This document shows positions 8,173 through 29,186 of a stretch of 29,186 nucleotides of DNA, piece by piece. A program made the position numbers and the translations under genes. Below the pieces are notes generated by a model. The model made no database searches. It saw nothing but the letters and a program-made list of their open reading frames with translations, and was not told the DNA's origin. How positions within the stretch are numbered: the first letter of the stretch is position 1; every line of letters starts with the position of its first letter. Origin of the DNA: Geosiphon pyriformis (taxonomy: Eukaryota; Glomeromycota; Glomeromycetes; Archaeosporales; Geosiphonaceae); the NCBI GenBank assembly GCA_016748015.1, contig JAAOMT010000543.1, positions 608,159 through 637,344 of the forward strand, in the 5' to 3' direction.

Positions 8173-8304
8173 TATTGTTTTGATTGGTTCAAATGGCTAA
8201 TTACATATAGTAAACATGTAAATCATATTTATTTAGATTTACTTAAATTGTTTTTGTATATTAAATAGTGATTAGACTGTACTTATTAAACATAGAAATA
8301 AAAA
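8173..8304 (+). other. LINE 3' untranslated region and A-rich tail, copy 1
   Basis: This matches 26506-26640 of the younger element nearly base for base once C-to-T and G-to-A changes are allowed. Shared landmarks are the AATATTG-TTTG start, the GGCTA-TTACAT / GGCTAGTCACAT segment, TACTTATTAAA-CATA near the end, and an A-rich tail (8297-8304). It defines the 3' end of copy 1. Confidence 0.8.
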
Positions 8305-8374
8305 ATTAATTATTTAAGTTTAATTAATAATATAAATTTTTTTTATCTTTTTAATTAGTAATATATATAATAAA

Positions 8375-8470
8375 TTAGCCAGAATATATATTATTTAAAA
8401 TATAATATTGTTTTAACTAATTTAAATAACTGGTTACATACAAACAAAACATAATCAAATTTTGTTTTTT
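8375..8470 (+). mobile_element. Short LINE 3'-end fragment, copy 4
   Basis: The sequence at 8398-8450 repeats the LINE tail a second time: TAATATTGTTTTAACTAATT, then AAATAACTGGTTACAT, corresponding to TAATATTGCTTTGTCTGGCC and AAGTGGCTAGTCACAT at 26505-26538. About 25 bases upstream resemble the end of ORF2. It begins about 70 bp after the A-rich tail of copy 1. It keeps some C residues that copy 1 lost while losing G residues. This suggests a separate insertion, 5'-truncated, decayed mainly on the opposite strand. Confidence 0.55.
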
Positions 8471-8718
8471 TATAAAATTGTTAATATTAATATTTTAAAC
8501 TTAAAATTATTACAAAATAAAAAACATCACATATTTTTTATACAAAAAATAATGTATTATTTAAAAAATATAGTCATTAACAGCTAAAAAAATAAAATAC
8601 TTTTTTAATTCCGAATAAAAAAACAAAGACAAATTTAAAAATTAAGATTGATTTAAGCAAATAATAAAACTTGTATAACATAATTGTACATCAGTACATT
8701 TAATATGTGTTTAAAAAT

Positions 8719-10638
8719 CTAAGCTTGCATTATAGATAATTGCTCCTCTGGCAAATTAAACCATTCATCTTTTAGAGCATCATTTGTAGTCAGTCGACTA
8801 TTAGAATTTTTGTTCATCAATTTTTTCTTAAACTGTTGAGCGGATGAAAAAAGTGAAATATGGTTGTAAATTATAGTATGTTTGAAAAGATTTCCAACCA
8901 TCCATATATCTCCTGCAGCGCTACAAAAGTCTTCCCCTGATTTATATTCTGGAGCTTCAATAGCCAATAAATCTCTTTGTAAAGTAAATAGCAACAATTA
9001 GCAAACATGTCTAACCATAAGTCGAAATCTTTTATCACTGTACCTTGAAGCTCCTAAGGGAGCAGCTTCTTCAAAATCAATTAACATCCAACTATCATTC
9101 GGGAGTTTTAAAACATTATCCCAGCAAATATCCCAATGGACGACATTCATCTTATGAAGTTTTTCTAGCGTTACAAGTACATGCCGCATAGCATCTCACA
9201 GCTCGCGTTCACATTTTGGAAATGATGTAAAGCCAACTGGAGCCAAATGTACTATCACTGAGTCACTTGTAAGAAAATACTTATGAATCTTGATTGGCTC
9301 TAAGCCTGGAAGTGTATTTTGGTAAAAATTTTTATGGAAACCTAGATCAACAATGCTTGTTTTGTCTATTTTTTTAATGATCTTGTTGAGGAGTATTGTA
9401 ACAACACAATGTGACTGTTGGATATCATCGAATAGTCTCAATATTGGAGCTGTAATGTACTGATCTTGACACAAAGTCCGAAGAATCCGAAAAAAATTGA
9501 TTGTGTACTTAAGCACTTGATAATTGTATGCTCGGTTTGAACTGTTAAGGACCAGATGTTCACCAATTGTCTGACATCTTGGTTTCATGCCCATTGTATC
9601 GTCCACATAATAATAGTAAAATTGCAAATGTGTGCTCCCTACTGCAAGGGCTAGAACAAATGGTAAGTTACCGAAGGCAAGTGGATTCCAAAATTTAAAA
9701 TAACTATTCAGTTGTTCTGCTGCCTTTATTAAGTTGCCCTTAACATCTTTTTCTTCACCAATCATTACAAGCAAGTCGTTGCAATAAACTGTGATATTTG
9801 GTGGAATGTTTTTATATGTGATGGTACTTGTATCATGTATTTTTCCATTATGTTTCCAGCTTAGTGATGGAGTTGCGATATATTTGCTGAGAAATATAAT
9901 TATGTCCAAAATGTGATTATTGATACCATCTGTGGTTAGTTGTTCTTGTCTGGCACATTTTGTGAAGGACTTGCTTAAAATAGTACTGACGATTGCACTC
10001 AATCTAGGAACATTGTAGAGAGCTTCTGAACATGTAGGTACAAAATAATCCTTAAGGTTCTGGCAAAGATAGGGTTCAACTAGCAATTTTTGAAGTAACT
10101 TTGAGATAAAACAGTTTTCAAAATTGCTGCGTGTGATTGGTTTATTGAAGGGACGACAGAGAAGTTCTAGAAATGATGAGGTGTTGTCAGGCATGTCAAG
10201 TCTAGCACGCTTCACAAGGTGTTCTAGAATAACCATAGAAAATAGAAAGTAATAAGCATTATACACCAAATATTCTCTTAGATATGGATATTCCTTCCAT
10301 AAAACGCATATTATTACAAAATGAATGAATAGTAATATAGATTGTATGGATGGAAAAGTGGAATTTACAAATTTGTTACCTGTATCATCTATTGCTGCAT
10401 GTAGTTTTTCTGCTCATTTTTGCAGCTCCTCCTTCCACTTGTCCTTCTCTATCTCCAGCTTTTTTTCTTGCTTTTCCAGCTTTTGTTTTTCTTCTATCCA
10501 CTTCTTCCTTTGGTTTTCGTCCACATCCTTCTTCTTTCTCAGATTCTTCTTCAACTCTTTTAATCTATCTAGCTTCTCCATGCATTTCCCATACTGGGTC
10601 TTAGCATATTCTAATTCACGTTTAATATCTTCAGACAT
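8719..10638 (-). pseudogene. Kinase-like protein with N-terminal coiled coil, broken by three stops
   Basis: One continuous frame of 640 codons runs from ATG 10636-10638 (A at -3) to TAA 8719-8721. It has in-frame stops at 10414-10416 (TGA), 9196-9198 (TGA) and 8998-9000 (TAA), no indel, and no intron is needed. Residues about 1-75 form a K/E-rich coiled coil (MSEDIKRELEY onward). The middle about 400 residues are unfamiliar, with aromatic YFKFWNPL and FYYYYVDD patches. The C-terminal part is a protein-kinase-like catalytic half: HWDICWDN at 9138-9115 (HRD-x4-N loop), LIDFEEA at about 9084-9064 (DFG position), an APE motif and GDIWMVG (DxWxxG). The HRD Arg is Trp (TGG, one C-to-T from CGG), and the Cys after DI is TGC, one C-to-T from CGC. 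The stops equally fit CGA-to-TGA (twice) and CAA-to-TAA. No glycine-rich ATP loop was recognised. It resembles the large kinase-like families of arbuscular mycorrhizal fungi, possibly effector-related. The function of the intact relative is unknown. Confidence 0.75.
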
Positions 10639-10678
10639 GATGTTTTGTGTGTTTGTTATGGTTTGGGAAGATATGGCT

Positions 10679-10685
10679 TAATATA
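10679..10685 (-). promoter_or_regulatory. Possible TATA-like box upstream of the kinase-like gene
   Basis: On the minus strand TATATTA lies about 40 bases upstream of the ATG at 10638. In DNA this AT-rich such a match has little weight. It is noted only because it sits in the short non-decayed leader between the gene and the AT-rich flank. Confidence 0.2.
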
Positions 10686-10739
10686 TGTTTTGTTCGTGTC
10701 AATGACATTTCAGATTTTTGATTTATCAGTATAAATTTA

Positions 10740-13559
10740 CTATTTAGGTAACAAACCCGCCTTTGTTAAATTAAAAGAGTTTTTACTCTATAATATAATT
10801 GTTTTTTTAATAATTATTGTATTATGCAATATTCATTAAATTATTTTTGTTTTGTTAAATTAAGATTATTATTGTTTTATATATTTTAATATTGAATAAA
10901 ATTCGTTTTATTATTTTAAAATAAAAATAATTGTAAGTTTTAAAATTAGAAAAAATTAAACCAGTATTAAATATATTTTTATTATAATTTTGCATATATA
11001 TATATAATTTTATATTAATTTTAAACTTATTAAAAAAGTTTATATATTTAATTAAAACTTAAAATATGTAACAAAAAATATTACTTACATATTTTTTATA
11101 TATAATTAATAATTAAAACTTATATTAAGCAATATAAATTAAAAAAAACTATTTGTTTTTATTTTATTTAAGTATTTAACAATTATTTATTTAAATGCTT
11201 ATTTAATTTTTTATTTTAAGTTTAATAACTTTTATATTAATACTTTATATTTTTTACAAAATTATTAAATTATTATTTTTATTATTTAAAAGACATATAT
11301 TATAGTTTTGTGGATTTTTAATCAACAAAATAATAATAATAATACTTTTAATTTAAAAAAATTTTGGTATTTATTTTTAATAATCAATAAAAAAATAATT
11401 TAAATTTTTAAAACAGTAATAAATTCAACTATAAATTTATTAAATAAGTCAATTTTTGTAAGTAAAATTTTAAAAACTTTATTATTAATTTTAAAAATAA
11501 GTAATTAAAACATAAAATAATAATAACAATATTATTTAATTTTTAATAATAAACAATTATTATTTTTTTGAATTCTTTAGAAAATTAAACAGTTATAATT
11601 TTAAAATTAATTATATATATTAATTTTTACAAGTTTAATTTACTGTTTTAATTAAATTTTTTTATTATTATTTTGATTATTTTTAATAATCTTTTATTTA
11701 TTATCTATTTAATTAAATTTATAATAAAAAAGTAGTTTTTTTTATAAAGTAGTCAAAATTTTTTTATTATATAAATAATTATTTATATTTAATACAATAA
11801 TCAAAAAAATATTGTTTAAAACACAACAAAAATAATTTAAATTTTATTAAAATTAATTTTTTGTTTTTCTGTTTAATTTGTTTTTTATTAAAAATTAATT
11901 TAATAAATAATTTTTAAATTTTTAAATTTTTGTATTTTTGGCATTTTAATACTAATTTTTTTGATGGTTATTTTTCTTGTTATACTAATACTTGTTTAAT
12001 TTTTTAGATAATTCTTAAAGTTTTTTATCTAAATATGTTTCTAAGAAGATTATTAATTATAATTAATTATCTAATCTAAAAGAAATATTTTGCATTTATG
12101 ATTGCTTTCCATCTAGATTTAAATTTATTCTTTTTACAATTAAAGCATTTTTACTAAATACTATATAATTAAAACTATTATTAAAAGCAAATACAATTGT
12201 ACAATCTAAATATAATTTCTCAAAAATTGAAATTGTTTTATATTTAATTTGTTTAAAAAAATGGTTTGCTGTTTAATAATTATCTTGATTTATATTAGAT
12301 TGCAAATAGCATTATGCTTTTTTTAGTATATTAGAATAGTTTTCTATATTATTTTGTTGTAAATATAAATGTCTATTAATTTTAGTTAAAAATTTACTAA
12401 TCATAATTAATCTTTCATTTTTTTTTTCTTAGTGGCAAATTTCTATACTTAATTCATATGTTATATTTGTTATTATTTTAATAAAAAATATATTCAATAT
12501 GGACTATAAGAACTCTTTTTTTTTTATTAAGTAAGTTAAAATATATTCAATTTATAAATTTATATTTTGACATATATTTTTTATGCTTATATATTTTTTT
12601 TAAAATTTTTTTTAAGATTGCAAGATATTATTTTTTTTATGTTTATTATAATATAAGTCTTGATAATATTATTGGAATAAATAATCAAGAATTTTGAGTT
12701 ATTTTACTGCAGCCATAAAATTAATAGTTTTTTTCTTTATTATTTCAATATTAAGAAACAATTCATGCTCAATAAATTTTTTAAATATGACTGAAGTGGC
12801 ATTGAAGTTTTGGTTTTTAATTCAAATATAACATTTTTTTACAATGTTTTTATTATCAATTATTTTATTTATTTTTTGGTATTTTTCATGTTTTAATGTT
12901 AAAAACTTATTATTAAGCAATTAATACTTTGCAAAATATCAAATTTTTCGTGTTTTCTATACACTACCATTAATAAAAATTTTCTGGACAATTTTCAAAC
13001 TAGCATTAACTTTTTTACGTCTATTATTATCATTTAACAAAATAAAATATTCAAAAATAACTCATTTTTGATTATATTTAAAGATAATTAACTGAGCATG
13101 TTGTTTTTCTAAATGTTTTTTTAACTTTTGCTCTTTTTTTATTCAACTAGTATATAAATTAACTTTACTTTCTGAATTGCTTGAAAATTTATTAGATTTA
13201 GGCCATTATAAGTCTGTAGTTAAAGTATCACTAATATTAAAAAAAGTAGTAATTTTTTAGTTCTAGCTGCTGCTTTAGAAAATAAATTATTTGGTTTATA
13301 TTTATCATAATAAGTTAACTTTGGTATTTTTTTTAATATAAAAATCTTGCTTCTTTTTTTCTATATGATTGTTATTTTTTTATACTATACTAAGTTTTTT
13401 TAATTTTGTATTTATTCTAATTACAGTTTTTATATCTTCTATATTATTTTATTTACAAATAATTGTTAATTAAAAAGATAATAAATAAGAATATTTGAAA
13501 TAAATTTCAATTTTAGTATTATAATCTAGTTGTAATTTCTCATTTTCATATTTAGTAGT
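10740..13559. other. AT-rich decayed DNA, no gene
   Basis: Almost pure A/T, with stops in all frames. A stretch around 11820-11940 is similar to 17390-17520 (see the repeat entries), so at least part of it is repetitive. T-rich segments around 12.0-13.4 kb keep a little more G and C, for example near 12700-12720 and 12950-13020. They may be older transposon remains, but no domain could be read on either strand. Confidence 0.5.
11820..11945. repeat. Dispersed AT-rich repeat, member A
   Basis: The block containing CTGTTTAATTTG, TTAAAAATTAATTTAATAAA and TAATTTTTAAA aligns to 17390-17520. There the same order reads TTACTTAATTTG, TTAAAAATTAATCTAATAAA and CAATTTTAAG. The shared order of less common segments, not just AT content, supports homology. 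The identity of the parent repeat is unknown. Confidence 0.4.
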
Positions 13560-13930
13560 TGACAATATATTGTATTATTTATAAATTTAATGTTCAAAAA
13601 AGAATATCCAAAATATAATAATGTGATCAAAGAGCTAAAATCTTTAAACATAATTAAAGTTGATACTATGCACTTCTTTTCTATTAGTTACTTAATATTT
13701 TATATATAGTTTCTATATTATATTAGTGAAAAAATTGAAAAAAATATTATCTATTTATGAATTTGATCAAAACTTGTAATTAATTTTGAAAATACTATGT
13801 ATTTTAATAATAATTTACATATTTTTAAAGATATTAAATTTTTACAAGTAAGAAGTTTATTAGGTTTTTACAAAAAAATCTGGGTTTTATTTATTTAAAC
13901 TAATATATTTTATACATTTTTTGCATTAAA
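13560..13930 (+). mobile_element. Possible Ty3/Gypsy-like reverse transcriptase remnant
   Basis: A translation at 13827-13890 reads KDIKFLQVRSLLGFYKKI. This resembles the xVRSFLGLxxYYRRFI block that follows the RT palm in Ty3/Gypsy polymerases. About 280 bp upstream, 13558-13575 reads VVDNIL, comparable with the YxDDIL catalytic box with D-to-N. Between them, 13655-13690 gives LKLILC-SFLL, like the LKL-KC-FF segment. The blocks fall in order at roughly the right spacing, although the last interval is too long and the frames are broken. The evidence is suggestive only; chance similarity in AT-rich DNA is possible. Confidence 0.35.
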
Positions 13931-15790
13931 ATAAACTCATTAAAAATATATAACATTAAAAAAAAGAGCTATTCAAGATTATAGTCTTTAAGACAACTTT
14001 AATTCTCTTAATTAAAATAAAGCCAAAGATTTTTCAATTTTAACCTGATTTTCCTAAATTAATACCAATTAATATAAGTTTTTTGATTATTATAATAAGC
14101 TATTATATATTATATTCTAATAAGTTATTGAAATATTCAACAATTGAAATTTTTTTTATAGTCTAGAAAACCAATTTTAAAATTAGATTATGATTTGGTT
14201 GAATACATGATAGGTATTTTAATTGTTATATTTCTTTTAATATAATTTATTATTCAAATATTAAATTTAACTATAAACTTTTATTATAGAAGATTTTATA
14301 TATCTTTTAGATTCAAGCAATTATTTAAAATATAATATTATAGTTATTGAAAAGTTATTTGTAAATTTAAAGTAAGTATTTACATTATCATAAAAATAAT
14401 ACTAATTAAAATTTTCAAAATTGGTTACTGTTTTTTATCTTTTATAGATTGTAAAAATAGTTTGCAAGTTTTTTTTTCAGATCTGATTAAATTAATTTTT
14501 AATCATAAATACTACTTTTCTGCTTTATATTTTTAAGCTTTTAATCATTTTTTTCATTAGATAAAACACAATTTATTTTTAAAATTTTATAAAAAAAAGT
14601 ATTCAAAATATTAGTTATTAAAAAACATATATTGTAAGATATTATAGAAAAATATTATATTATACACATAAAAATTATGTTTAAATATAATATTTTTTAA
14701 AATTGTTATATAATTATTATAAGTTTAATTTTACAGAATTTATTTATAAGATATTTCAAAAGATTTAATAACAATAATATTTATATATATAAATCTTCAT
14801 ATGTGGTGCCATTGAAATTTTTTGCTACTATAAATAATTGGAAAAATACTTTTTTCTGTGTTTAAAGTTATATTAGTATACATAATACACAATTTAACAC
14901 CATAAATTAAAAAAGTTTTTTAGTAGAATCTGCTTTAGTTTCTTTTATACAGCATATTTTTAATTAGAAACCAATTGAAAATACATCAAAAACTTTAAAT
15001 AAAAATTTTTTTTTCTTATTCATATCTTCATTATTATATATTATTATATAACAATAAAAGTTGACAAATGTCTTTGAAAATCAACATATGTAAAATAAAA
15101 TATTTGAAAAAATAAAATTAAAAGTCAGAGTTTTAAATAATATAAATATCAGCCAATCATATATTTAATTTAATTCAATGATCAAATTATATAATTAATT
15201 TTTTTTGATTATAATATTATCTCATTTAGTTCTTCTAACTTATTTTGAAAACTTTGTTTTAAGATCTCCAAAAAAACCTTATATTTGTCTAAACTGATAT
15301 ATTGACATAATAAAAACAAGCATATAAAAAAAACCAACTTTAATAGAATGCAAATTATTGATTAAACATTAGATAACAAGATAAATATTGAACTTATTAT
15401 ACAAAAAAACCTAAAAATTACATAAAAGTTAACAATTATAGTGTTTACAAAAGCATTTGGCAGACTTTTTTAACCACAGATAAAAACAAAGATATCTACT
15501 AAGCTATTAAATAGTATTGTCTATTTTAAGACATATGTTTCAAATATTAAAATATATAATACTACAAAAAAAAATAAGTCATTGTTACCAGTAGAATTTT
15601 AGCTATTAATTAGCATGAAATTACCCTTTTAATTTCTATTATTAAGTAGCATATATTATTATTATTTCGATTATTACTTATTATTTAATCAAATTATCAA
15701 ATATTATTACTCAATTAATAATCCGATTTGTACTCTAGAAATTAAGATGATCAAATTACACAATATCCTGAACCATTTAACATAGTCAAA
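13931..15790. other. AT-rich decayed DNA, no gene
   Basis: No open frame with protein-like composition was found. If the Gypsy-like reading just upstream is right, RNase H and integrase remnants would fall here. I could not recognise an integrase zinc finger or any catalytic triad, and no LTR pair was found. Confidence 0.45.
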
Positions 15791-15890
15791 ATTCGCCGAA
15801 ATTAATGGAAATTGGCCGAAATAATCAATAGTTCAGTGAAATAACTTGTAGTTTGCCAAAATATATTTTTAGTTCACCCAAATTATAGTA
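15791..15890. repeat. Five tandem 20-bp units (GCCGAAAT-type)
   Basis: Units begin at 15791, 15811, 15831, 15851 and 15871 with an exact 20-bp period; the last is shifted by one base. Each starts with a variant of ATTCGCCGAA or GTTCRSYGAA, followed by an AT-rich half. The first two are the best preserved (ATTCGCCGAA and ATTGGCCGAA), and later ones drift by transitions (TTTGCCAAA, TTCACCCAAA). It opens an island of moderate GC in decayed surroundings. Confidence 0.8.
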
Positions 15891-16107
15891 AAGAAAAAAG
15901 TGCAAATTCAAAGACTAGTACTACAACAAGTTATATAAAAAAAAAGCTTCTCTCTTCAAGAAAATATATCTTCTCATAGTATTTTATCATAGTACTTTAC
16001 TTTAGATATCTTAATTAAAACAAATCATCTTTTACACATTCAAATAAAAATTAAATATTTGAAAACCAAATTCTTAAATTATTACACTTGAAATTCTCTC
16101 AACACAA

Positions 16108-16153
16108 CTAACGTTTTGAAATTGATTAGCTATCAATTTCAGTAATCTGTTAG
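16108..16153. repeat. Imperfect inverted repeat (hairpin)
   Basis: GAAATTGA (16118-16125) and TCAATTTC (16133-16140) pair perfectly around the 7-nt loop TTAGCTA. CTAAC (16108-16112) and GTTAG (16149-16153) extend the pairing outward. Confidence 0.7.
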
Positions 16154-16259
16154 TGACTTCAGGCCTGAATAAAAAGCGTTTCCCTTGATAAAATCCCATT
16201 TTTTTTACATTTCTTTTATTTTTCTTTTCTTTTCTTATTATAATCATTAGGGTAACCTA

Positions 16260-16384
16260 CAGACAAAATTCTTGTAGAAGAGTTGACTTTTACAGCAAAG
16301 TAACTACACATTTTAGTAAGCTTTCAGACAAGCAATTCCTGAGTAAGAGTTGACATTTACTACAATATAACTACACAAAATAAC
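16260..16384. repeat. Two-copy direct repeat of about 65 bp
   Basis: Unit 1 (16260-16324) and unit 2 (16325 to about 16384) both run CAGACAA, then ATTC-TG, then AGAGTTGACWTTTA, then TAACTACACA. Differences are scattered substitutions and short indels, so this is an older tandem duplication. Confidence 0.75.
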
Positions 16385-16440
16385 TGGCACGGAATTGGCC
16401 ATTCTACTTATAAGCCCAGCAGTTCAAATTATAGGAGATA
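16380..16440 (+). other. Weak tRNA-like A-box/B-box pair, SINE candidate
   Basis: TGGCACGGAATTGG at 16385-16398 resembles an RNA polymerase III A box. CAGTTCAAATT, about 35 bases further on, resembles a degenerate B box (GGTTCGAATCC). Spacing is tRNA-like, but no acceptor stem or anticodon arm folds convincingly, so this is not called a tRNA. It could be the head of a decayed tRNA-derived SINE. Confidence 0.25.
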
Positions 16441-16607
16441 ATTTGAAGATAAATTCAGTTATTGGAGGTCCAACTACTTCCTGAGAACGTGAATTTACAG
16501 CAAATTAACATTAAACAGCATTTAAGAAAAGAGACCAAAAACCTCTAGTAACACCATCTATAATTTGTTACAGAGTTCATTTATTAAAAAATTAATTATA
16601 TTAATTT

Positions 16608-16990
16608 TTTTCATAAATTTTGAGTCATGTTCTTGCTTTAAGATATAAAAATTGAGATAAGTGATTAATCTTTTGTAATATTTTTTAATATTAAACATTT
16701 TACTTATAGTATTATTCTTAAGTCAATAGCCAATTATATTATAATTATTTCACTTTTTGTTTCAAATCTGCTGTTTTTGGCACCAAAGCTGATTGTTTTT
16801 GATGTTTATCAAAAAAAACACAAAATTACAAATAGAATACAAATAATATTTTCAAATTTTTCAACAATTATTTTTAATACTTTTATAATTCCTTTAGTAC
16901 TTGATGTAAATAATATTAATATCTGAATTTTTGTTCTGATAATGACAACTGAATATAGTAGTAGTATAAATAGAATATTTATAATTAATA
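16608..16990. other. AT-rich spacer, no gene
   Basis: Nothing recognisable. A 71-codon minus-strand open frame at 16809-17024 is hydrophobic (I/L/V-rich), as expected from random AT-rich sequence, and has no family resemblance. Confidence 0.4.
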
Positions 16991-17248
16991 ATACTGTGTT
17001 ATTAGCAGAAAACACACAAGCCAAAAAATATTATATTTTAATAAAAAAGTAATTATCTAAAAATTAGATTAATATTAATTAAAAGCCTTACTGAAAATGA
17101 TAATACTTTGATAATTTATTACATAGTAATAAAACTTTAATAATTGTTGATTGGCTAAAATCTGATTAATTGGCATCTAAAAATTAAATATTAATAATAA
17201 AAATGGCTAAATTAAATTTTAATAACTTTATAAAATATAATATAATTC

Positions 17249-17313
17249 AAAAAATTAAACTGTAAATATAAAAGAAAAAAATTTAATCTATTATATTTAC
17301 AGTTTAGTTTTTT
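17249..17313. repeat. Inverted repeat with 22-bp arms
   Basis: AAAAAATTAAACTGTAAATATA-type arm 17249-17270 pairs with 17292-17313 with one mismatch, around a 21-nt spacer. It lies near the predicted 5' region of LINE copy 3. Confidence 0.75.
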
Positions 17314-17389
17314 AAAATTATTAAAATTAAAAAACTAGATATAATTTAAGATTATATAAATTTTTTAATAACTATAAATAGTTTGCACT

Positions 17390-17520
17390 ATATAATAAAA
17401 ATAACTTAAATTATTGAAAACTTAATTTTTTTCTTTTACTTAATTTGTTTTTTTGTTAAAAATTAATCTAATAAACAATTTTAAGACTTTTGAATTTAAT
17501 TTCTAAACAAACATTTTACT
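17390..17520. repeat. Dispersed AT-rich repeat, member B
   Basis: This aligns with 11820-11945. The TTTTTTCTTTTACTT-AATTTGT stretch also loosely resembles the pyrimidine-rich leader of the younger LINE (19800-19830). Both members might therefore derive from LINE 5' regions. The resemblance is not firm. Confidence 0.4.
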
Positions 17521-19731
17521 AAATTTTATATATTAATTTAATATATTTCTTTAATCAAACTTATTTTAAAACCATTTATATAAAAAATAACAATATTAAT
17601 TAACTTTTTTATGTAGTAATTTTTAAATAATAATTTTTAAATTTGAATAGCAACATATTAATTAGTTAAAACTTTCTTTAAAACAGAAAAAAACTATTAA
17701 CAATATCTATGTTTAAAATTTTTTCAAGTAATTCAAATATAATATTTATAATTAATATTTTTAATAATTAAAATATGCTATTGGTTCTTTAATATATTTA
17801 TTGTATTTTTAAACAAAAAAAATAATATATTATTGTTTTTATTTAGAAAAAATACATAAAACTTTATTAAATAATTAAATAATTTTAAAAAAATAATTAT
17901 AATCAACTAATATAACAATAAATACAAATTTTAAATTATTAATAACTATTTTTAAAATTTATTTATTATATAATTTTCAAAAAAAATATTTATTAACAAA
18001 TAACTAAATAAATATTTGTTAATATTCAAATCTCTAATTTAATTTCTAAATTATAAATAAAATTAAAATAAAATTAAAATTTAGATAAAGTTATTATTAA
18101 ATATGTTAAAATAATTTAAAAATTAATTAAATAAATAAATACCAAAATTAAACCAAAAAACAAAACATTTATATTTTTATAACAAAATTATGAACTAATT
18201 TATTATATGTTTTTTAGTTTTTTGTTTTTAAAAATAATTTTACAAAAATATAGCCATTAAATATGTTTAAAAAATTAATAATTAATTTCTTTATATTTAA
18301 AAAAACAAAAAAAAAGCCAAGTAAATTTTATTTTGAATTTCAATAAAGCTTTTTTCTTTACTATTAAAATAAATAACTTGAAACTTTATTTATTGTTAGT
18401 TAATATATTAAAAACATAAAAAAAATTTTTAACAAATAATTACTAATTTTATTTTAGGTTTATATCTTAAAAAAAAAAGAAAAAAAAATTAAAACAATCT
18501 AAAATATTTTGTCTTAAATATAACAATTCTTAAGATTGCTTAATAACAAATGTATTTTTATAATCTTTAAAAAAAATATGAATAAAAATTTCAAGAAAAT
18601 TTCAAAAAAAAATATTAACTTATAATTTCAATATAAATAAAAGTTGTTATATTAATAAAAATAATTATCTACTATTATAAAACTAAAAAAAGTTCAAAAA
18701 AAATAAAAAATAAATTTCATTAAATAAGACTATAAATTTTTTAAATACTTTTTATATAAATATTTAAAAAAAAAATTTTACATTAAAATTTATTTAAATC
18801 TAATTATTTTTATTGCTAAAAAAATATAATTTATATTAAGAAAACTTTTATAAAAAAATTTAATTAATAAAATTTTAATAGCTATTTAAAAAGAGTTTTT
18901 ATTAAATACTAAATATTATTATTTATTATTTTAAACTTAAAATTAAGCTAAATTAAATAGCATAAATTTAACATTTTTTTTATTACTTTTAATTAAAATC
19001 TATTTTCCAAATTTACATCAATAATAAATATCTTATTATTCTCATTTAATATTTTATTTTAATTAATTTTTACTTATCTATTAATATTAATTAAATAAAA
19101 ATATAGTTTTCTTATTTTATTGTTTTTTTTTTAAATAATATGTCTAACATTTTTATCAAATTCTAAAATACTAGTAACTTAAGTTTTTTTTATGATTTTA
19201 AATAATAAGTTTAATAAAATAAGTCTTAAAAAAATATTAATTTTAAAAAATTCTAAGATTTAAGTTTAGTTAATTTTTTAATAAAAAATATAATTATTAA
19301 GATTATTATATAAATAAACTTCAAAGATATAATAAAAACAATTAACTTTATTTTATTTTTGTTAGTTTTATTAATACAGTAATTAACAAAAATATAACAA
19401 ATATTAATAATTTTTTTTAATATTAATTACTATTTTTATTGTTTTAAATAAACTTTTGAATATGTAATTGGATTTTTTTTTACAAATAAACAAACAAAAA
19501 TTGATAAAAGTGAAATATTAAAAATATAAATAATATTAAATAATTTTAATTTAAAAGTACTATATTGGTTAATTTTATGTTATTTTATATTAATTTGTTA
19601 TTTTATAATAATTTTTAAATTTAAATATTATGTAAAATATAATTTAAAAAATAGTATATTTTTAGCTAATAAAGTTTTTTCTAAAATATAACATAAAAAA
19701 TATACTAATGTTTTTATTAAGCTGTTATTTA

Positions 19732-19744
19732 AATTATATAAGCT
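19732..19744. repeat. Target-site duplication, left copy
   Basis: AATTATATAAGCT here matches AATTATACAAGCT at 26640-26652 in 12 of 13 positions; the single difference is T/C. The pair exactly brackets the element between its 5' leader and its poly-A end, as expected for target-primed reverse transcription. Confidence 0.85.
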
Positions 19745-20497
19745 CTCATCGATCCTTTAATCACAATAGAAGCAAAGAAAGTTTGTCACAGAAATAGCTT
19801 TTTCTTTTACCTTTTACTCTTTGTTTTTACAGTTATTTTTCTTCCTACACTTTTATTTGTTGCTATAGAACTGGAGGGCTCTTTTTTTGGTGGTTCTGGT
19901 GCTGGTTCAGCTGGGTTGAGGATCCAGTTTGGCGGTAAAAAGAAAGCTTGTGTAGATAGTATTTATTCTCATGGTCTGTTGTTCAAGAAGCCAAAAAAGC
20001 CTACAGCCAGTAATGTGGTCAACTTGTCTGCTGGCTCTCTGAGCCTGGAGAATGTTGGAGATACTGGTGCCAAGCCTGTGGTGTCCTGGGAAAGTGAAGT
20101 TGATAGTGTTTTTAGCAGTGTGAGCGATCTTTTAGATACTGAGTATGTGGAGACCACAGTGGCTGAGAAAGCCTGTTATATTGGATCAGATGCAGATAAT
20201 GACATGGATGAAGCAACACCAAAAAAAATTTGCATGTGAATGTACGCACTGGGCAATCTGCTGAAGCAGCCTGTGTTTGGACATATAAGTGACAATGATG
20301 GTGTGTTGGAACTTTTTTCTCATGTGAGTGGTGGGTCCAATCAGTTGCCACCACTCAGGTTACATGCCATGGTAAAACAGAGTTTTAATTCAACAAAATC
20401 GTTTGCATTAGATATTGAAGTGTCAACTGTTCCTGGCAAAACAAATGTTGATAAGTTGATGGCAATAAAAAAATTTTTTTATAGGATTGATGGTTTT

Positions 20498-20510
20498 GGG
20501 GGGGGGGGGG
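20498..20510 (+). repeat. Thirteen-G homopolymer in ORF1
   Basis: An uninterrupted run of 13 G, the most extreme GC feature in the window, encodes Gly-Gly-Gly-Gly after Gly-Phe. The reading frame is correct on both sides. The length is unstable by nature and could also be miscounted by sequencing. Confidence 0.9.
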
Positions 20511-21813
20511 CGTTAACTTCCTCAAAATTTTCAGGCATAATAAGATTATCTTTTACTTCAGAGTTGAGTTTAAAAAACACTAGAAAAATGGCAATCAGTG
20601 AAAAGATTCTTGTTAATGATGATATTAGAAAAGTAAACAATTGCTCAGATCGGAAAGTAATTATCAGGAAGATCTTAGTGGATCTTCCCAAATCAGCAAT
20701 TGAGGCAGTGTTTTCCAAGTTTGGTAAGATTATTTCTGTTAAGTTGTAGCTTGTTGGTCTTTGGCAAAAGGCCTTGGTAGAATATAAATTATTTGAGATG
20801 GCTGATTTGGTCACAGCTAGATAGTCTGTGCTTGTGAGAAAAAATTCTGTTTGTGTGGCAAAAACAATTGGTAATAAACAAACATGGGTATCCAGAGATC
20901 AACATCGGACATTGTTTTACACTCTCCCAATTGGCACTACTGCTCATGATCTTTTTGGTCTGTTAGATTCATATGGTGGGAAGACCTGTGTCATTGGCTG
21001 TAATCTGATTATGTATGTTCGTGATAGGTGTGCTGTCATTTGTTTTGTTGATGAAGCATCCAAATTGGCTGCTATTGGTTCGGCTCCGATTTTCAAGGGT
21101 GTGGGTTTGCATTGGGCTGGTCTTTTTCTGGCCTGTTGTATGGCATGTAAACAGTTCGGTCATGTTTTTGGTGCCTGTTCTGTGGGTAAGAATTCTGGTG
21201 GTCATGGCAAGCATGTGGTTACCTCTCAGAATTGGGTTCATCTGGCTAATATATATAGGAAGAAGCACACTCCTATTACCCATCTAGTTTCCTTTGGTAG
21301 TAAAACATGGGCCCAGATCACTGGCAACTCTCCTTTTTGTGTGGCTTCTTCGGTCGCTTCTGGTATTGGTTTGATTCCAGGTGTAAAACCTTTTTCAATG
21401 GCTTCTGGGTCTCTTGATATCTCTGATTTGGGTGATCATTTGGCATCTTTGGAATGCTTTTTAGAGCTCTTAGCTGATCGGGTTTCCAGTATTGTGAAAA
21501 AACTGAGCTTTGTTAAATTGGTGCTACTGGTGTCTCTTTCTTGTGTTTTTTTTTCAGCTATTTTTGCACCTATGGGTTTGGTTAAAGATTCAGATATGGC
21601 TCTGGATGATGGATTGACTTTGTCTGTTTTCTCTTTTTCTGGTGCTGATGAATCTGCTGTTGTTCTTAGTTCTAGTGGCTTGAAGGTTCTTATCTCTAAA
21701 GTAGGTGGTTTGAAATCTAAGATGTTTGCTTTGGAGGCTTCTATTGGTTCAGTTTTGGTGAAATTGGATCTTTTGTGTTCTAATTCAGGTTCTTCTATTC
21801 ATTCTCCGTCCCA

Positions 21814-21817
21814 ATGA
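21814..21817 (+). promoter_or_regulatory. ATGA overlap coupling ORF1 stop to ORF2 start
   Basis: The ORF1 stop TGA (21815-21817) overlaps an ATG (21814-21816) that opens ORF2 in the +2 frame relative to ORF1. The first residues after it (MSNLVWKFAMCN) lead straight into the endonuclease domain. A one-base-offset stop/start of this type is known to support termination-reinitiation in some non-LTR retrotransposons. This arrangement is therefore likely how ORF2 was translated. Confidence 0.75.
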
Positions 21818-24800
21818 GCAATTTGGTTTGGAAATTTGCAATGTGCAATATTTGAGGTATCAATGTTCTTGCTAAGTAAGCAGACATTGTTTGTTGGCAT
21901 GTAAGTTCTAGGAATATGGTTTCTTTTGTTACTAAAACAAAGTTGAAGTCCTCTGCTGGGCCATAGATTAAGGATAAGTTTGATGGAATTCAGATTTTTA
22001 CTTCTGGTTTGGATGTTGGTTATTTTAGTGCTGGTGTTGCTGTGATCATGAACAATTTTTTGGCTTGCCATGTTTCTAAGATTGATAAGATTCCTGGTCA
22101 GGTTGTCTCTGTGTGACTGTTGTTTAAAGGCAAGCTCTCAGTAACTGTGCTCGGTTTGTACACTGATGCTTTTTCTGGTGTTCATTTTGGTTAGGTGTTT
22201 GAGATTAATTCTATCATTGCCAAGGCTGTTAATACTAGCACTTTTATTGTATTGGATGAGGATTTCAATGAAAGCAGATCTGGGAGGAGTGTGAGTTACA
22301 GGTTTTGCTTGGGTCTGGGTCTGGTTAATTCTTTTACAGGCCATCATTTGGCTGGAGCACCTACATGATGCAATTCGAAAAGAGTTGAAAAGACTATTAA
22401 TTACATTTTAGTTGGTGAAAATCTGTTTTCTACTGTTGCTAAGCATTGTATTGGGCCTGTTTCTGAATTTTTTGATATGGATCACAGTATTGTTATGGTG
22501 TTGGTTGGTTTAGTTGGGCTCTTGAATGTTCGGTTAAATAGTTTGCGCAAGCAGACTAACAAAGATTGTTGGAAGTTCAGGATTAAGGATGCAGATATTG
22601 CCAAGTGGACTAAGTTTAAAGATTGTGTTTCAGCTAGGCTTTAGTTGGTCAGAGACTTCTTCTCTGATGCCAAAGCTGGTGGTGATTTGGATACTATGTG
22701 GGCAATTTTGGAAAAAGAAATGGTTGATTCAGCTGATAAGGTTTTCTTGAGACATTGGTTTAGTGAATTTCAGTGCTCTAGAAATAGGCATTCTTCAAAG
22801 TTCTTTGGGCTTGAATTGCTCATTGCCAAGATTGTTAGTAAGATTTGTTTTGGTAACATGCTTGGAATTGATTGTCTTGTAAGAAAATGGTCCACTTTAG
22901 ACAAAACCAAAGCTTGCGTTTTCTCTAATTTGGTCATCTTGAGTGGGGATAGTGTGGTTCTTTTCAAACACTTGTCATTAGTTTGCAAAGAGTATAGGAG
23001 ATCAAAAATGTTTGAGTCAAGGTTGGCTGAAGAGGTGTCTATTTGGAATGCTATAGACAAGTGCATGGAGAGTTTTGCTTCTAATAAAGATAGCATGATT
23101 AGAAGTGTTTTAAACTGGTCTTTTTGCAAGGTGGTCCTTGACCATTTGGTGGTTGATAGTAACTTGGTTTTGGAGCCCAAGGAGGTGAAATCTAAGGTGG
23201 ATGAAATCATGGTAGGATGGACAAGAGTGCACACTATATCTTTGTTGTTGCCTGATTACTGGATCTGCCAGTACATATCATTGAATTACGTAAGGAACAA
23301 GGCTTTTTCTGGTGTTATGAAGGAGATTGGTATGGAGGAGTTGCTTCTGGTGGTGGGTGATCTGCCTGATGGCAAAACCACTGGCCTGTCTAGTATTCCT
23401 AATGAACTATGAAAGCATAGTGGTGAGATGGCTTTGAGTTGTCTGTTGACTTTGCTGAATGCTTGCTTGTCTGCTGGCAGGGTGCCTGTTTCTTGGCAAA
23501 AGGCCTGAGTGTCAATGATTTCTAAGCCATATAATTGGGATGGTGTTTTCACAAACACACATCTTATTGCTCTGATTGAAACTGCCAGGAAGATTTTTTT
23601 TAAGGTTTTGTTTGATTGAATTTCATTTGTGTATAGTAAGTTTGGTGTTCTTTGTAGTAACAATTTTTTGGTATTGAAAGGCATGTCCATACAGTCTCCA
23701 GTATTTGCTGTTGGGGCAGTTGTGGAGAACACTCTCAAGAAGAATAGGAAACTTTGGTTGGTCCTGCAGGACATGCGAAAAGCATATGATTCTGTTGGGT
23801 GACATCATTTGAGGGCTAGCTTACAGAGAATTAAGATGTGTGACAAGTTCATCAAATTTTTTGGTAATATACACAAGAGTAGGTTCAATAAGGTGATGAC
23901 TGATTTTGGTCTTTCTGATGGATATTGTGTTTGCGATAATTTAGATCAAGGTGAAGTCTTCTCACTGCTTTTGTGGAGGATTTTTTACAATCCACTTCTA
24001 TGTGAGGTCAAGAGACATGAACAGTTTTTTGGGTACTAGATATGTTCCAAGTTTGTTTTGAAATTAGGTCGAATTGAAAGCAGTGGTAGATTGTCTTCTT
24101 ATTTTGCAGTTGGTGCTTTCATTGATGATATGATTTGGGTTGGGAACTGTCAAGCTGCTACTCAGAATATTTTGGACATTGCAAGTGAGTTTTTTGTTGT
24201 CAATAACATTTCCATCAACAATGAAAAAACCATGGCTATTCCAATCAATCTGAGTGTTAAAATTGCTTTTTTGAGTATTAGTGGTCTGCCTATTTTGATA
24301 GCCAAGAAGGGTGAAACTCATTGTTATCTGGGAATTTTTTTGTCTACTGAGGGACTTTCAAAGCCGAGTGTGGCCAAGACTTATTTTAATGTTCATTTTT
24401 TTGCTAATGTGGTTCTCAGAAAAGCTATTATTAATAAACAGTTTTTGTATTTGGTGTCAGTCATCTTGCAGCCTATTATCAGCTATCACACTCAGTTCAG
24501 TTTTGTTTTGTCAAATATTTGCTGCAAATGGGATGTGATATTGAGGAAGAGACTTAAGTCTAAGGCTGGTTTATCTCGTGACTTCTCTAGTGAGGCTCTG
24601 TGTCATCTGTCTTTATATGGTCTGAAGTTTTTTGAGCAGGTGCAGTCCAAAGAGAAGTTGGCTGCCTTAATTTCATTTTCCAATTTTTCTGAAGTGCTTG
24701 GCCAATTTTTTAAGCACAGATGTCTCAATTTGCAGGTTCTGAAGTGGTCTCCTTTGAACCCTTTGCAGTTTCTTGTTAAGTTGTGTGTTAATTCTGTGAA

Positions 24801-26505
24801 CAATTTTCTGGCTGGTGTGGTTAAAATTTTTTTGTGCAATGAGTTGTCTTTGTCAAATGGCTTGTCTAATGCATTTCGCAGTCCTGGTAGTTTTCTTGTA
24901 TCTTCTATTCTGAGAAGTTCTCTGCACTTCAATTCTGTTTATTTATTGATGCATTTTGGTGTGGTCTTTGGTAATAGATTGTTTGATAGGAAGGGACATG
25001 TTATGAGTTGGGTGACTTTTAGATGCTAAAAAAAATTGGATCCAAGGGGTCCTGTTTCTCACTGGTTTAGGGTTGTGTCTGATTTTTTTTGTAGTACTGG
25101 TGTCTTATTGGCCAGTTCTATGAGGTCTACTTGTGTTTCTGGTTTGAACATTCTGGATTCCAAGAATTTTTCTGTGATTCTTAGTGGGTTACATGAGATC
25201 TAGTCTGACTTGTTTGAGGTCTTTATGGATGGCTCATTAAAAAATTTTGGTCATATTGATGTTGCTGGTAGTACAGCTGTTTATTTTTCTGCTATAGATT
25301 TGAGTATTAATGTTAGAGTTTATAGTCTGTTGTCTTTTACTATGGCCAAACTGCAAGCCATTGCTTTGTCTTTGGAGTGTGTTCCGTCTTTTTGTACAGT
25401 GGTTGTGCATACTGCCAGTTAGGTAGCTATTGATGTATGTGTTTCTGAAATGTTGTTGTCTGTGCCTGATTTTTGCTCCTTTTGTTGGTTGGAAAGACAC
25501 CAGATTTTTAATTTGATTCATGAAAAGAATCTTTCTGTATGGTAGATTAAGATTAAGGGACATTCTGGAATTCTTGGCAATGTTAAGGCTGATGCTGCTG
25601 CTGGTGACACTGCTTTTTCTCATTTGTCTTTGCCTGTCAGTGTCCAGGAGCAATTTTTGGTAGCTGAAGGCACATCAGTGTTTAGCAATGCTCATCATTT
25701 TGTTTGGAATTTGTATAGATCTGTTTGTCATACATGATGGAAAGTAGAACCTGGCCATGATGTGATTCCTGAAGTGCTAATTAAGGCTGTAGATTGGGGT
25801 GCTACCACTAAAGTGTGGCATCCTGATTCGTAAATGCTTGTTGGTTTTACTAGTCAGAGGTTTTCCTGTCTTTGCACGTACCTGATAAAGGCTGTGCATT
25901 GATGGCTTCCTGTGGCAGTTAGAAAATGGTTATATGATAGGTCTTATCTTGGTGTGCTTTGCTTACTGTGTCATGAGGTGGAGTTACCAAATCATGTTTT
26001 CACATATTCTCATGATGTGAAGATTTGTGGGGAAGTTTTGGCTGTGGTATCTGCAGATTGGCTTTCCATGGTCAGTCCTCGTGGCTCATTGCCTTCTGCT
26101 GTTTTGCAATCTCTTGGTCAGTGTTCTGTAAATGTTAAATTATATTCAGTCTTGTGTAAGGGGTTTGTGCTGAGGGAATGGTATGCTGAAGCTGTGGGAA
26201 TTTTTGATAGTAAAAAGAAAACTGTCAGTGCTGTGGTTGGCTTTGTTGAGTGTTTAGTTAAGCTGCATCGCTTTAAGGCCTGGTTGGCGAGGTCAGTGTT
26301 TAGAGTGAGAATGGAGAAAGCTGGTTTGGTTGGGGATGACAGTTTGTTTTCAGGTTTGTCTCACTGCTTGGGTTTTTTGTTGTCCGATAAGGTGGTAAGA
26401 ATGCTTAGTATTGCTGGCTCTTTTGCTGTTAGTTTTGGTCATTGCAGGTCTTGTCTCTTTTTCTTTGGTTTGGATGGTAGTCTGTGTGTTAGTATTGGTG
26501 TGTAA
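21814..26505 (+). pseudogene. LINE ORF2 polyprotein (EN-RT-RNase H-zinc finger), 19 premature stops
   Basis: A single frame of 1,564 codons ends at TAA 26503-26505. An APE-type endonuclease lies at about 21814-22560 (TKTKL at 21931-21945, DEDFNE near 22255, DMDH near 22480). In TKTKL a Lys (21934-21936) sits where a catalytic Glu is expected. Reverse transcriptase follows at about 23390-24600: LIALIETARKI, LQDMRKAYDSV (motif A), LDQGEVFS, and FIDD at 24118-24129 with both Asp kept. RNase H lies at about 25205-25640: MDGS at 25225-25236, KLQAIALSLE, GHSG near 25558, KAD; the third acidic position appears lost (HTAS then stop). The C-terminal CX2CX7HX3C finger at 25960-26007 has its last Cys changed to Tyr. 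Stops: 9 TGA, 7 TAG, 3 TAA, first at 21853 and last at 25900. No frameshift was found. Confidence 0.92.
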
Positions 26506-26639
26506 TATTGCTTTGTCTGGCCTAAGTGGCTAGTCACATGTAGAAAATGCATGAGCTGCATTTAGTTTGAGTCTCTTAGTTTGGTTTTATGTACTAAATA
26601 GCAGTTGGGTTTTACTCATTAAAAGCATAATAAAAAAAA
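26506..26639 (+). other. LINE 3' untranslated region and poly-A end
   Basis: About 125 bases after the ORF2 stop end in an A run (26632-26641). The same tail is found decayed at 8173-8304 and as a fragment at 8375-8470. This shows it is a conserved part of the family, presumably recognised by the element's reverse transcriptase. Confidence 0.85.
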
Positions 26640-26652
26640 AATTATACAAGCT
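26640..26652. repeat. Target-site duplication, right copy
   Basis: AATTATACAAGCT, the partner of 19732-19744 with a C where the left copy has T. Its first two A residues are shared with the poly-A tail, so the exact left limit is ambiguous by a few bases. Confidence 0.85.
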
Positions 26653-27800
26653 TGAAATTTTGGTATTTAAAATTGTTAAAAAATTATGAATTAAATTAAA
26701 TATAAAGTTTATATTGTTAATAAATTGTTAAAAATTTTTTAATAATATAAATACTAATTTTGTTTAAGCTTTTTTAGATGTTAATACTAATTTTAATAAT
26801 ATTTATTTCATTTTATATGATGTATAAAAGTTATATTATAGATTTGTTATTTTTAAGTATATAAAAAACTTTATAATCAAAATAAATTACATTATTAAGA
26901 ATATTTTAAAGTATTTATTTTAAAAAATAGTTTTAAATTATTTGGTTGTAAAAAATAAGTTGATTTTAGTTTTTAGTAATATTAAATCTAAAGTAAACAT
27001 TATTATAAAAAAATAAACAAGAAAAAAACAGTTTTAAAAAATATTTTTAATTTGTAATAATATTAATACTTACTTCTTAATTATATAAACAATAATGCTT
27101 TTTTTAAAGTTATAAATACTATTGGTTTTAATTAAATATTTAATATAATCAAAAAGCTTTCTAATAGAAAAATTGCTAATTTGTTTGATATTTTTAATAA
27201 ACTTTAAATACATTGTAATAATTTAATATTATATATGGTTTAAATTTTTTTAATATTTATTTGGTCTGTAAATTAGTTTTTTAATCATAAAAAATATAAA
27301 TAAAATAAAGTTTTAATTAAAACTTTTTAGATAATTTTTTTCAAAATTTTTTTAAGCAAAATTTTTTTAATATATAACAAGTTTAATATTCTTTATAATA
27401 ATAATTTTTCTGTTTTCAAAGACATTACAATTAAGTTTTTGATTTTTGTTATTGGTTTTGTAATAGAAAATGCTTTAAAAAAAATTACAAACTTTAGTTG
27501 GTTTTATAGAATATGTAAAAATTTTATAATTCTATTAGAAAATTTTATTTAAGAAATAATTTATATAAAGTTAAGATATATAATAAGTTGATTTAATTTT
27601 TTAATGACATTTATAATAACAAAATTAATTAAATAATAACAGATTTTGGATTAACAAATAAGTATTAAGTACATAATAATTTAAACTAAGATAAAGTTTT
27701 TTTTTATTTTTATAAAAAAATTTTTAACCTTTTTTTATGTAAAATAAAGAAACAAAAAAATCTGTATATAGTCAAATCTAAAATAATTTATATTAAGATA
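26653..27800 (+). mobile_element. Decayed LINE copy 3, 3' half (linker and reverse transcriptase)
   Basis: This continues copy 3 beyond the nested insertion. The join reads GCTTGAAATTTTGGTATTTA, aligning base for base with GCTTGAATTGCTCATTGCCA at 22809-22828. Further matches are 26895-27000 to 23095-23200, 27455-27600 to 23710-23860 (RT motif A), and 27735-27790 to 24000-24050. Motif A reads L-stop-N-M-stop-K-F-Y-N where the younger copy has L-Q-D-M-R-K-A-Y-D. This is consistent with C-to-T (new stops) and G-to-A (Asp to Asn). Similarity fades near 27.8 kb, so the copy is 3'-truncated within the RT. Confidence 0.75.
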
Positions 27801-28027
27801 ACTCATAGTATTTTGAATTTACCAATTTGATAGTTAAAAAATTCTTATGTTTATAACTTATATCTATAATATCCAATAATTTATAACTTTTTACTATCAC
27901 TATAAGTTATTTTAAGTGCTAAATTTAGTTTAAATTTTGTTAATTTTAGTAAAATTACAGTAAAGCAAACCAATATTTCTATAATTAAAAATACTATATA
28001 ATAATATATTATTATTTATTTAACAGA
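27801..28027. other. AT-rich spacer, no gene
   Basis: A short AT-rich stretch between the end of LINE copy 3 and the minisatellite. No open frame or motif was recognised. Confidence 0.5.
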
Positions 28028-28637
28028 ATAATTATTAATTATGTAAATAATCAAATCAAAGTTTCAAATTATTCTAAGTTTTAAATTTTTATTAATTATG
28101 AATAATCAAGTCAGTTTTAAATTGTTTTAAGTTCTAAATTATTATTAATTATATAAGTAATTAAGTTAGAATTTCAAATTATTCTAAGTTTTAAATTATT
28201 ACTAATCTTATAAATAATTAAATTAAAGTTTTAAATTGTTTCAAGTTTTAAATTATTACTAATCTTATAAGTAATTAAGTCAAAGTTTCAAATTGTCTCA
28301 AATTCTAAATTATTATTAGTTGTATAAATAATTAAATTAAAGTTTTGAATTGTTCTAAGTTCTAAATTATCATCAATTATATAAGTAATTAAATCAAAGT
28401 TTCGAATTATTCTAAGTTCTAAATTATTATCAATTGTATAAGTAATCAAATTAAAGTTTTAAATTGTTCTAAGTTCTAAATTATTATTAATTATATAAGT
28501 AATCAAGTTAAGTTTCAATTTGTTTTAAGCTCTAAATTATTATTAATTGTGTAAATAATCAAATTAAAATTTTAAATTATTTTAAGTTTTAAATTATTAT
28601 TAATTGTGTGAATAATTAAGTCAGATTTTTGGATTAG
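28028..28637. repeat. 57-bp minisatellite with 114-bp higher-order unit
   Basis: Ten full units and one partial unit. The AAGTT-CTAAATT landmark recurs at 28076, 28129, 28186, 28243, 28300, 28357, 28414, 28471, 28527 and 28584. The interval is 57 bp, except one of 53 and one of 56. Odd units carry TTTC and even units TTTT after the AAAG/AGTT segment, without exception over ten units. This shows a two-unit parent period of 114 bp. The period is divisible by three, but all frames contain stops. Confidence 0.92.
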
Positions 28638-28672
28638 TTTTATTTAATCAGAATTTTAATTGTATTTTTTTT

Positions 28673-28709
28673 TGCTTTTTGATTCTATTATATCTAATAG
28701 CAAAAAGCA
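28673..28709. repeat. Hairpin with two perfect stem blocks
   Basis: TGCTTTTTG (28673-28681) pairs with CAAAAAGCA (28701-28709). CTATTA (28685-28690) pairs with TAATAG (28695-28700) around TATC. An unpaired ATT bulges on the left arm. Confidence 0.75.
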
Positions 28710-28832
28710 TGCTATCTTTTTAGCTTGTATTTTGCAAAGTTATAAAAATATTATACTTTATAATAAGTTTATAATATTTAATTAATATCATGTAAATAAT
28801 AAAACCAAATAAAAACTGCAAAACACTTTAAC

Positions 28833-28864
28833 AAAAACTGTTTTTTATATATAAAACAGTTTTT
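28833..28864. repeat. Perfect 12-bp inverted repeat
   Basis: AAAAACTGTTTT (28833-28844) and AAAACAGTTTTT (28853-28864) flank an 8-nt AT loop. Weaker pairing continues outward between CCAAATAAAAACT (28805-28817) and AGTTTTTAATTTTGG (28858-28872). Confidence 0.75.
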
Positions 28865-29186
28865 AATTTTGGCTTAGATTAAAGATAAACCAAATTTTTG
28901 TTTATAAGCAAATACAATATATAACTTAATTAGTAAATATATATCTATAGTATTTAATTTTAACTTTGATAAAACACTTATTATTTTTGTTTAAAAGACA
29001 AAATTATGTAAAATAATACTTACTAAAGATATAATTTGAGCTGTTAACATAAAATTCTATGATTAATTAGATATTCCAGAAAATAAATGCTAAAAACTAT
29101 CTAATGACTGATTTAAAAGCTTTAAAACTATGTTGAATCATATTCACTTTACTTTCATAATAATATATCATTAGATAATATTATAA

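Follow-up and report, generated by a model that had tools for sequence, protein, structure and literature searches.

The window analysed here, a 29,186-nucleotide stretch of the Geosiphon pyriformis genome (contig JAAOMT010000543.1), contains a 6.9-kb LINE that carries an A-rich tail and a target-site duplication and is bordered on both sides by colinear, same-strand sequence of its own family, which is much more strongly decayed than the element itself. That the LINE split a single older relic is well supported by the sequence comparisons described below; that the decay was already present in the duplicated target is also well supported, if not proven. In the explanation we favour, and which we consider very probably correct, a 6.9-kb LINE of an abundant family would have inserted by target-primed reverse transcription into AT-rich DNA. 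By chance, this target would have been what was left, after decay, of the ORF2 of an older family member with the same orientation, and about 13 bases of it would have been duplicated on insertion. The enzymes of a related LINE, the tail, and the duplication together point to target-primed reverse transcription as the mechanism.

The inserted LINE and its family

The inserted element is a near full-length LINE (non-LTR retrotransposon) at 19745-26639 on the + strand, delimited by BLASTN and by a survey of other copies. All six whole family copies match it by BLASTN over 3041-6895 bases, at 68-86% identity. The survey took in 36 other copies, six whole and 30 as flank pieces; the 30 were the highest-scoring of the remaining matches to the reverse transcriptase stretch and are therefore the least decayed. 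The 3' end (element base 6890 or later) is present in 32 of them, and at least 19 have a 5' start no more than five bases from that of 19745-26639; by eye, many carry approximately 8-10 additional 5' bases that the window element is without.

ORF1 can be followed from 19742 to 21817 (+) as open stretches in one frame, with three in-frame stops counted from 19802. ORF2 occupies 21838-26505 (+) with 19 in-frame stops, and endonuclease, reverse transcriptase, and RNase H are assigned to it by comparison with a relative, L007. When the 22 stops in total are set against the commonest codon of the relatives, 14 are explained by C>T or G>A only and eight are not. Because ORF2 is broken in this way, the element itself gives no more than a trace of RVT_1 (24040-25029, E 0.04, below the curated cut-off). 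L007, on the other hand, has PF03372 (Exo_endo_phos, E 4.7e-06) in one open frame, and PF00078 (RVT_1, E 1.8e-13) together with PF00075 (RNase_H, E 2.1e-08) in the next, overlapping one; the latter frame is similar to the solved LINE-1 ORF2 and R2 reverse transcriptases. Its two upstream open frames had no match in a Pfam search at E 0.01. Through these domains of L007, the endonuclease and reverse transcriptase expected of a LINE can be attributed to the family.

The remaining anatomy is also that of a LINE: an A-rich 3' tail and a target duplication were found on the inserted element, and of the 53 direct-repeat families in 19700-26700, the 20 largest included no long terminal repeat. Between 20001 and 27000, each 1-kb bin of the coding strand has an excess of G over C and of T over A (GC skew 0.21 to 0.39, AT skew -0.03 to -0.34). 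The family may be comparable to the I/R1-like LINE groups. Like other LINEs that encode endonuclease, reverse transcriptase, and RNase H, L007 combines these three domains with upstream open frames, and the tail and duplication of the inserted copy are equally typical; unlike them, L007 has its endonuclease and reverse transcriptase in two overlapping frames, and the window copy is interrupted by stops.

The family is abundant. At least 122 matches to one reverse transcriptase stretch were obtained in the 124.7-Mb genome, which is a lower bound, and family sequence was found in eight of 20 control stretches of 2.4 kb, covering 13,464 of 48,000 bases (approximately 28%, counting the best alignment per segment). 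These controls were placed at round positions on large contigs and were not matched for AT content. A ninth candidate among them (L076b, in control L076) was rejected as an artefact of a run of N.

The decayed host and the join

We aligned the flanks with a decay-aware directional score that penalises C>T and G>A only lightly and takes the base composition of the AT-rich sequence as background. For controls we used dinucleotide shuffles, alignments to the opposite strand, and real AT-rich stretches from the window. The left part of the host relic lies at 19187-19744 (+) and is homologous to element 22241-22811; it is firm to 19681, and 19682-19744 is placed by spacing only. The right part, 26653-27775 (+), is homologous to element 22812-24040 and is firm from 26855, with weaker support over 26653-26854.

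With a seven-row profile of the family as reference, the joined flanks gave a single colinear, same-strand alignment to element 22241-24040 of 357.6 bits, compared with no more than 29.4 in eight shuffles. With the same profile, the left flank alone scored 76.9 bits (19187-19681 to element 22241-22748) and the right flank alone 319.4 bits (26855-27775 to element 23059-24040); a second shuffle control of the single flanks gave 76.8 against 28.4 and 314.2 against 23.5, with four shuffles each. Against the element alone, the left flank reached 50.9 (maximum of 20 shuffles 25.9) and the right 228.1 (maximum 24.9), and the antisense alignment of both flanks to the element alone yielded background scores only. 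Another antisense test produced 33.0 (null maximum 31.7) in one setting and 56.5 (null maximum 32.8) in another; the higher value was rejected as a composition artefact, falling to 20.1, within its shuffles, when rescored with its own composition.

When all 19744 bases to the left of the element and 2534 bases to its right were tiled and compared with it in both orientations, family homology came up in three places only, all of them on the + strand: approximately 2.7-8.5 kb, 19.2-19.7 kb, and 26.65-27.8 kb. No tile was flagged on either strand over 8701-18900 or from 27853 onward. Similarly, 15991-19186 did not match element 19745-22240 (23.1; null mean 24.1, maximum 30.7), and 27776-29186 did not match element 24041-26639 (18.6; null mean 21.8, maximum 32.0). 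The first-pass annotation had opened the nested feature at 16991, a start that does not survive these comparisons. The host would thus be either an internal ORF2 fragment or a copy whose remainder has passed beyond recognition, and because both ends of the relic are missing, a host that was once full length cannot be shown. What had been described as two halves of one older copy is retained as one relic, split, but the pieces are two parts of one internal fragment of approximately 1.8 kb. The colinear, same-strand homology of both flanks does agree with the proposal that the split lies inside ORF2 and that the two copies share an orientation; with the duplication, it also confirms the LINE at 19745-26639 as an element interrupting a decayed relative.

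The same score shows that part of the very AT-rich DNA of the window consists of LINE remains, namely the host relic and a second long decayed copy of the same family at 2744-8305 (+), which aligns to element 20844-26638 with 1710.5 bits and four gaps of more than 20 bases. Within this second copy, 5374-5463 consists of 2.2 exact repeats of a 41-bp unit. A short match to the 3' region of the family (26501-26554) is present at 8401-8454 (37.0 versus a null of 23.0).

How firm is the join itself? A 26-row profile places it, without a gap, between element bases 22811 and 22812; the gap list of the seven-row profile implies the same place, and L007 as a single reference follows the same path (window 19188-27768, score 277.7, join between L007 bases 4269 and 4270). 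It had been predicted that the joined flanks would align to the removed element in one piece, and they do so, continuously, colinearly, and on the same strand, with all three references. Please note that these references overlap and are not independent, the element and L007 being rows of both profiles. L006, whose match to the element is confined to the 3' part, contributes poorly to the seven-row profile and was omitted from the larger one.

The bases adjoining the insertion are less distinctive. The sequence left of 19744 had been matched to element 22690-22760, a range that overlaps the end of the significant left segment, but the adjacent bases on their own are at chance. With 26 rows, the scores of left-adjacent pieces were reached by 166 of 500 shuffles (19640-19744) and 184 of 500 shuffles, and by 143 of 286 real controls; with fewer references, 19640-19744 was equalled by 68 of 200 shuffles, and with L007 it fell below the shuffle maximum. 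In all, 63 to 172 bases immediately left of the insertion are unrecognisable alone, and because of this the register on the left, and with it the exact left edge, depends on spacing, the host and the element each having 63 bases here.

On the right, where the match had been said to run from element 22809 onward, the join at 22811/22812 and the firm alignment from 26855 agree with that claim, but 26653-26854 is weaker. With 26 rows, the score of 26653-26753 was reached by seven of 500 shuffles, that of the 201 bases 26653-26853 by eight of 500 shuffles and six of 286 real AT-rich controls, and that of 26640-26693 by one of 500 shuffles, the best place being the predicted one each time. With fewer references the right-adjacent pieces were not significant (20/200 and 29/200 shuffles; under the shuffle maximum with L007), and the predicted place was the best in three of four such tests. 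Finally, few shuffles (11 of 500) did as well as the 265-base middle section with the seven-row profile, but 44 of 92 real AT-rich controls did; the through-alignment, at 357.6, is below the 396.3 of the two flanks added together, and the middle therefore adds no net score.

Order of events and mode of decay

The duplication AATTATAYAAGCT adjoins both ends of the element, and its score was reached by seven of 4000 random position pairs from the same flanks. The left copy, AATTATATAAGCT (19732-19744, +), differs by one C/T mismatch from the right copy, AATTATACAAGCT (26640-26652, +), which was identified by sequence comparison and the random-pair test. In the survey, the duplications of most other family copies were ambiguous. 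At element 22807-22808 all 26 family rows have GG and both copies of the target have AA; the uniform GG is an agreement that is partly due to selection given that 20 of these rows were found with a peptide spanning the two positions. Because the two copies share AA at these positions, the changes most simply precede the insertion, and the target had probably decayed beforehand. The earlier observation that the duplicated target carries the A/T substitutions of the decayed copy is thereby supported.

Retention of C and G tells the same story. Where the family is conserved, the host relic is left with 20% of its C (133 sites) and 18% of its G (319 sites), whereas the inserted element retains 87% of its C (377) and 88% of its G (732). 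What counts as conserved differs slightly between the two: 80% agreement sufficed in the case of the host, and all other rows had to agree in that of the element. Transversions in the host amount to 10.5% for A>T and 12.2% for T>A; in the element they amount to 0.5% over 3545 sites. Retention, transversions, and the shared AA all indicate that the host is the older of the two, and the retention gap and the AA in both target copies support the claim that it had decayed before the younger copy arrived. If rates were equal, the host would have been decaying for roughly ten times as long. The inserted element has aged too, having lost 12-13% of its conserved C and G in addition to acquiring its in-frame stops. 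A nested pair of this kind is a relative clock, in which the decay of the host records the time before the insertion and the duplicated target provides an internal check.

RIP of the Neurospora type changes C to T preferentially at CpA. In a mid-ORF2 stretch of 17 related copies (of 21 sequences; L099, L105, L107, and L108 were omitted) we counted 523 C>T or G>A changes, 128 reverse changes, and 62 transversions. By context, C>T was seen at 81 of 371 CpG, 133 of 2029 CpA, 102 of 1167 CpC, and 122 of 1654 CpT sites, that is, at a CpG rate approximately three times that of the other contexts and with no CpA preference in these 17 copies; TpC outside CpG was mildly raised (148/1387). The family resembles fungal RIP targets in that C>T and G>A deplete its copies of C and of G to a similar extent, but differs in having no CpA preference, CpG as its highest context, and a mild rise at TpC. 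The inserted element retains CpG at 0.15 of expectation. Together, the context rates and the CpG depletion are consistent with decay that would be mostly deamination of methylated CpG, with a slower C>T change at the remaining cytosines coming next, and not with RIP of the CpA type. The genome has ten matches to PF00145 (cytosine methyltransferase family), five of which have stops in the stretch. For fungi that are probably related, PMC8647823 describes high CG methylation at most transposon loci of Rhizophagus irregularis and reports a search of Gigaspora margarita in which no signatures of RIP were found.

Insertion sites and competing explanations

To be counted as nested, a copy needs both junctions and readable flanks. 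Four of the surveyed copies were dropped for runs of N (C247, C186, L006, and C314, whose left flank was rejected as such a run), and ten more in which both junctions could not be placed (C329, C327, C175, C373, C115, C301, C282, C155, C270, and L004), leaving 22; the 5' junction is doubtful in three of these, namely C157 and C322 (both placed at element base 717) and L007 (our own cut). One of the 22, C354, is clearly nested likewise: it sits in register in a decayed relative on the same strand, at element base 6782, close to the 3' end of that relative, with L042 and L043 as its flanks; the joined flanks scored 221.7 and the sides alone 143.6 and 67.6, with shuffle maxima of 29.7 and 38.8. 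The count used the best alignment per strand and model, and a weaker spanning alignment could be missed. Another candidate, C355 (spanning alignment 49.5), was rejected when its sides, taken alone, pointed elsewhere. None of the 22 had a little-decayed copy across its join.

Insertion sites are very AT-rich. Mean GC was 0.133 at 23 sites, the window included, versus 0.307 in 118 control bins, and 83% of the sites but 13% of the bins were below 20% GC. In addition, neighbouring 3' ends of the family were commoner near insertions, with 25 over 57 flank segments of up to 1.2 kb (surveyed copies L004-L069; L006 omitted) versus five over the 39 of 40 control segments that were usable. Nineteen of the 25 face the insertion and six point away, an excess that arises because a copy within 1.2 kb whose tail points away must be nested or truncated.

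With these data, three other readings of the window can be weighed. Loose settings can inflate scores on AT-rich DNA, as the antisense value of 56.5 and the failed C355 alignment illustrate, and the flank homology might be suspected of being a product of a permissive matrix. The flanks, however, reach two to 13 times their largest shuffle, the antisense strand against the element alone is at background, and no tile was flagged on either strand over 10801-18900; for 19187-19681 and 26855-27775 this reading is refuted, and its overall chance is negligible. It is more reasonable to ask whether the element landed between two separate old fragments that happened to share orientation and order. The family is dense, as the eight of 20 control loci indicate, the left-adjacent bases are unrecognisable alone, and the middle section is without net score. 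Yet between the firm segments there are 265 host bases for 310 element bases, which by eye is like the net deletions elsewhere in the relic; the right-adjacent sequence finds its best match at the predicted place, and the join is ungapped with three overlapping references. We regard two fragments as very unlikely.

Just as improbable, in our assessment, is that the family homes to its own relics, recognising its target by homology or a family-specific site rather than by base composition. Two nested cases, the window and C354, and the excess of neighbouring 3' ends speak in its favour. Against it, only one of 22 other copies is clearly nested, no join among the 22, by the best alignment per strand and model, falls in a little-decayed copy even though most of the family DNA of the controls is of that kind, the two nested sites bear no relation to each other in the element (base 3067, which is window 22811, in one and base 6782 in the other), and the AT-richness of the sites explains the pattern. 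The simplest reading is insertion into AT-rich DNA, part of which consists of dead family members; the site would have been chosen for AT-richness and availability, not homology, and the nesting itself is nothing unusual where copies of the family are so numerous. A bolder extension, that the family feeds on its own dead, with copies made AT-rich by C>T decay becoming landing sites and live copies and genes being spared, appears to us unlikely; if true, the window and C354 would be two snapshots of a cycle of decay and insertion.

According to PMC6911290, which deals with plants, nesting of LTR retrotransposons is common, especially in large element-rich genomes, and certain families prefer older copies of their own. 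The "autoinsertions" treated there are alike in placing a younger element in an older copy of its own family, and the flanks of the window element, colinear and on the same strand across the join with the inserted family, would qualify it as one. The differences are that the window element is a LINE, that its host has decayed so heavily that a decay-aware score was used to test it, and that the preference seen in certain plant families is not shown for this one.

Two further features of the window deserve mention. A 405-aa stop-to-stop open frame at 9196-10413 (-) lies in DNA of approximately 35% GC and had no Pfam match (E up to 0.1) or NCBIfam match (E up to 0.01). A short distance to the right of the host relic, a tandem array of 57-bp units occupies 28027-28630 in approximately 10 copies, with higher periods of 114 and 171 bp.
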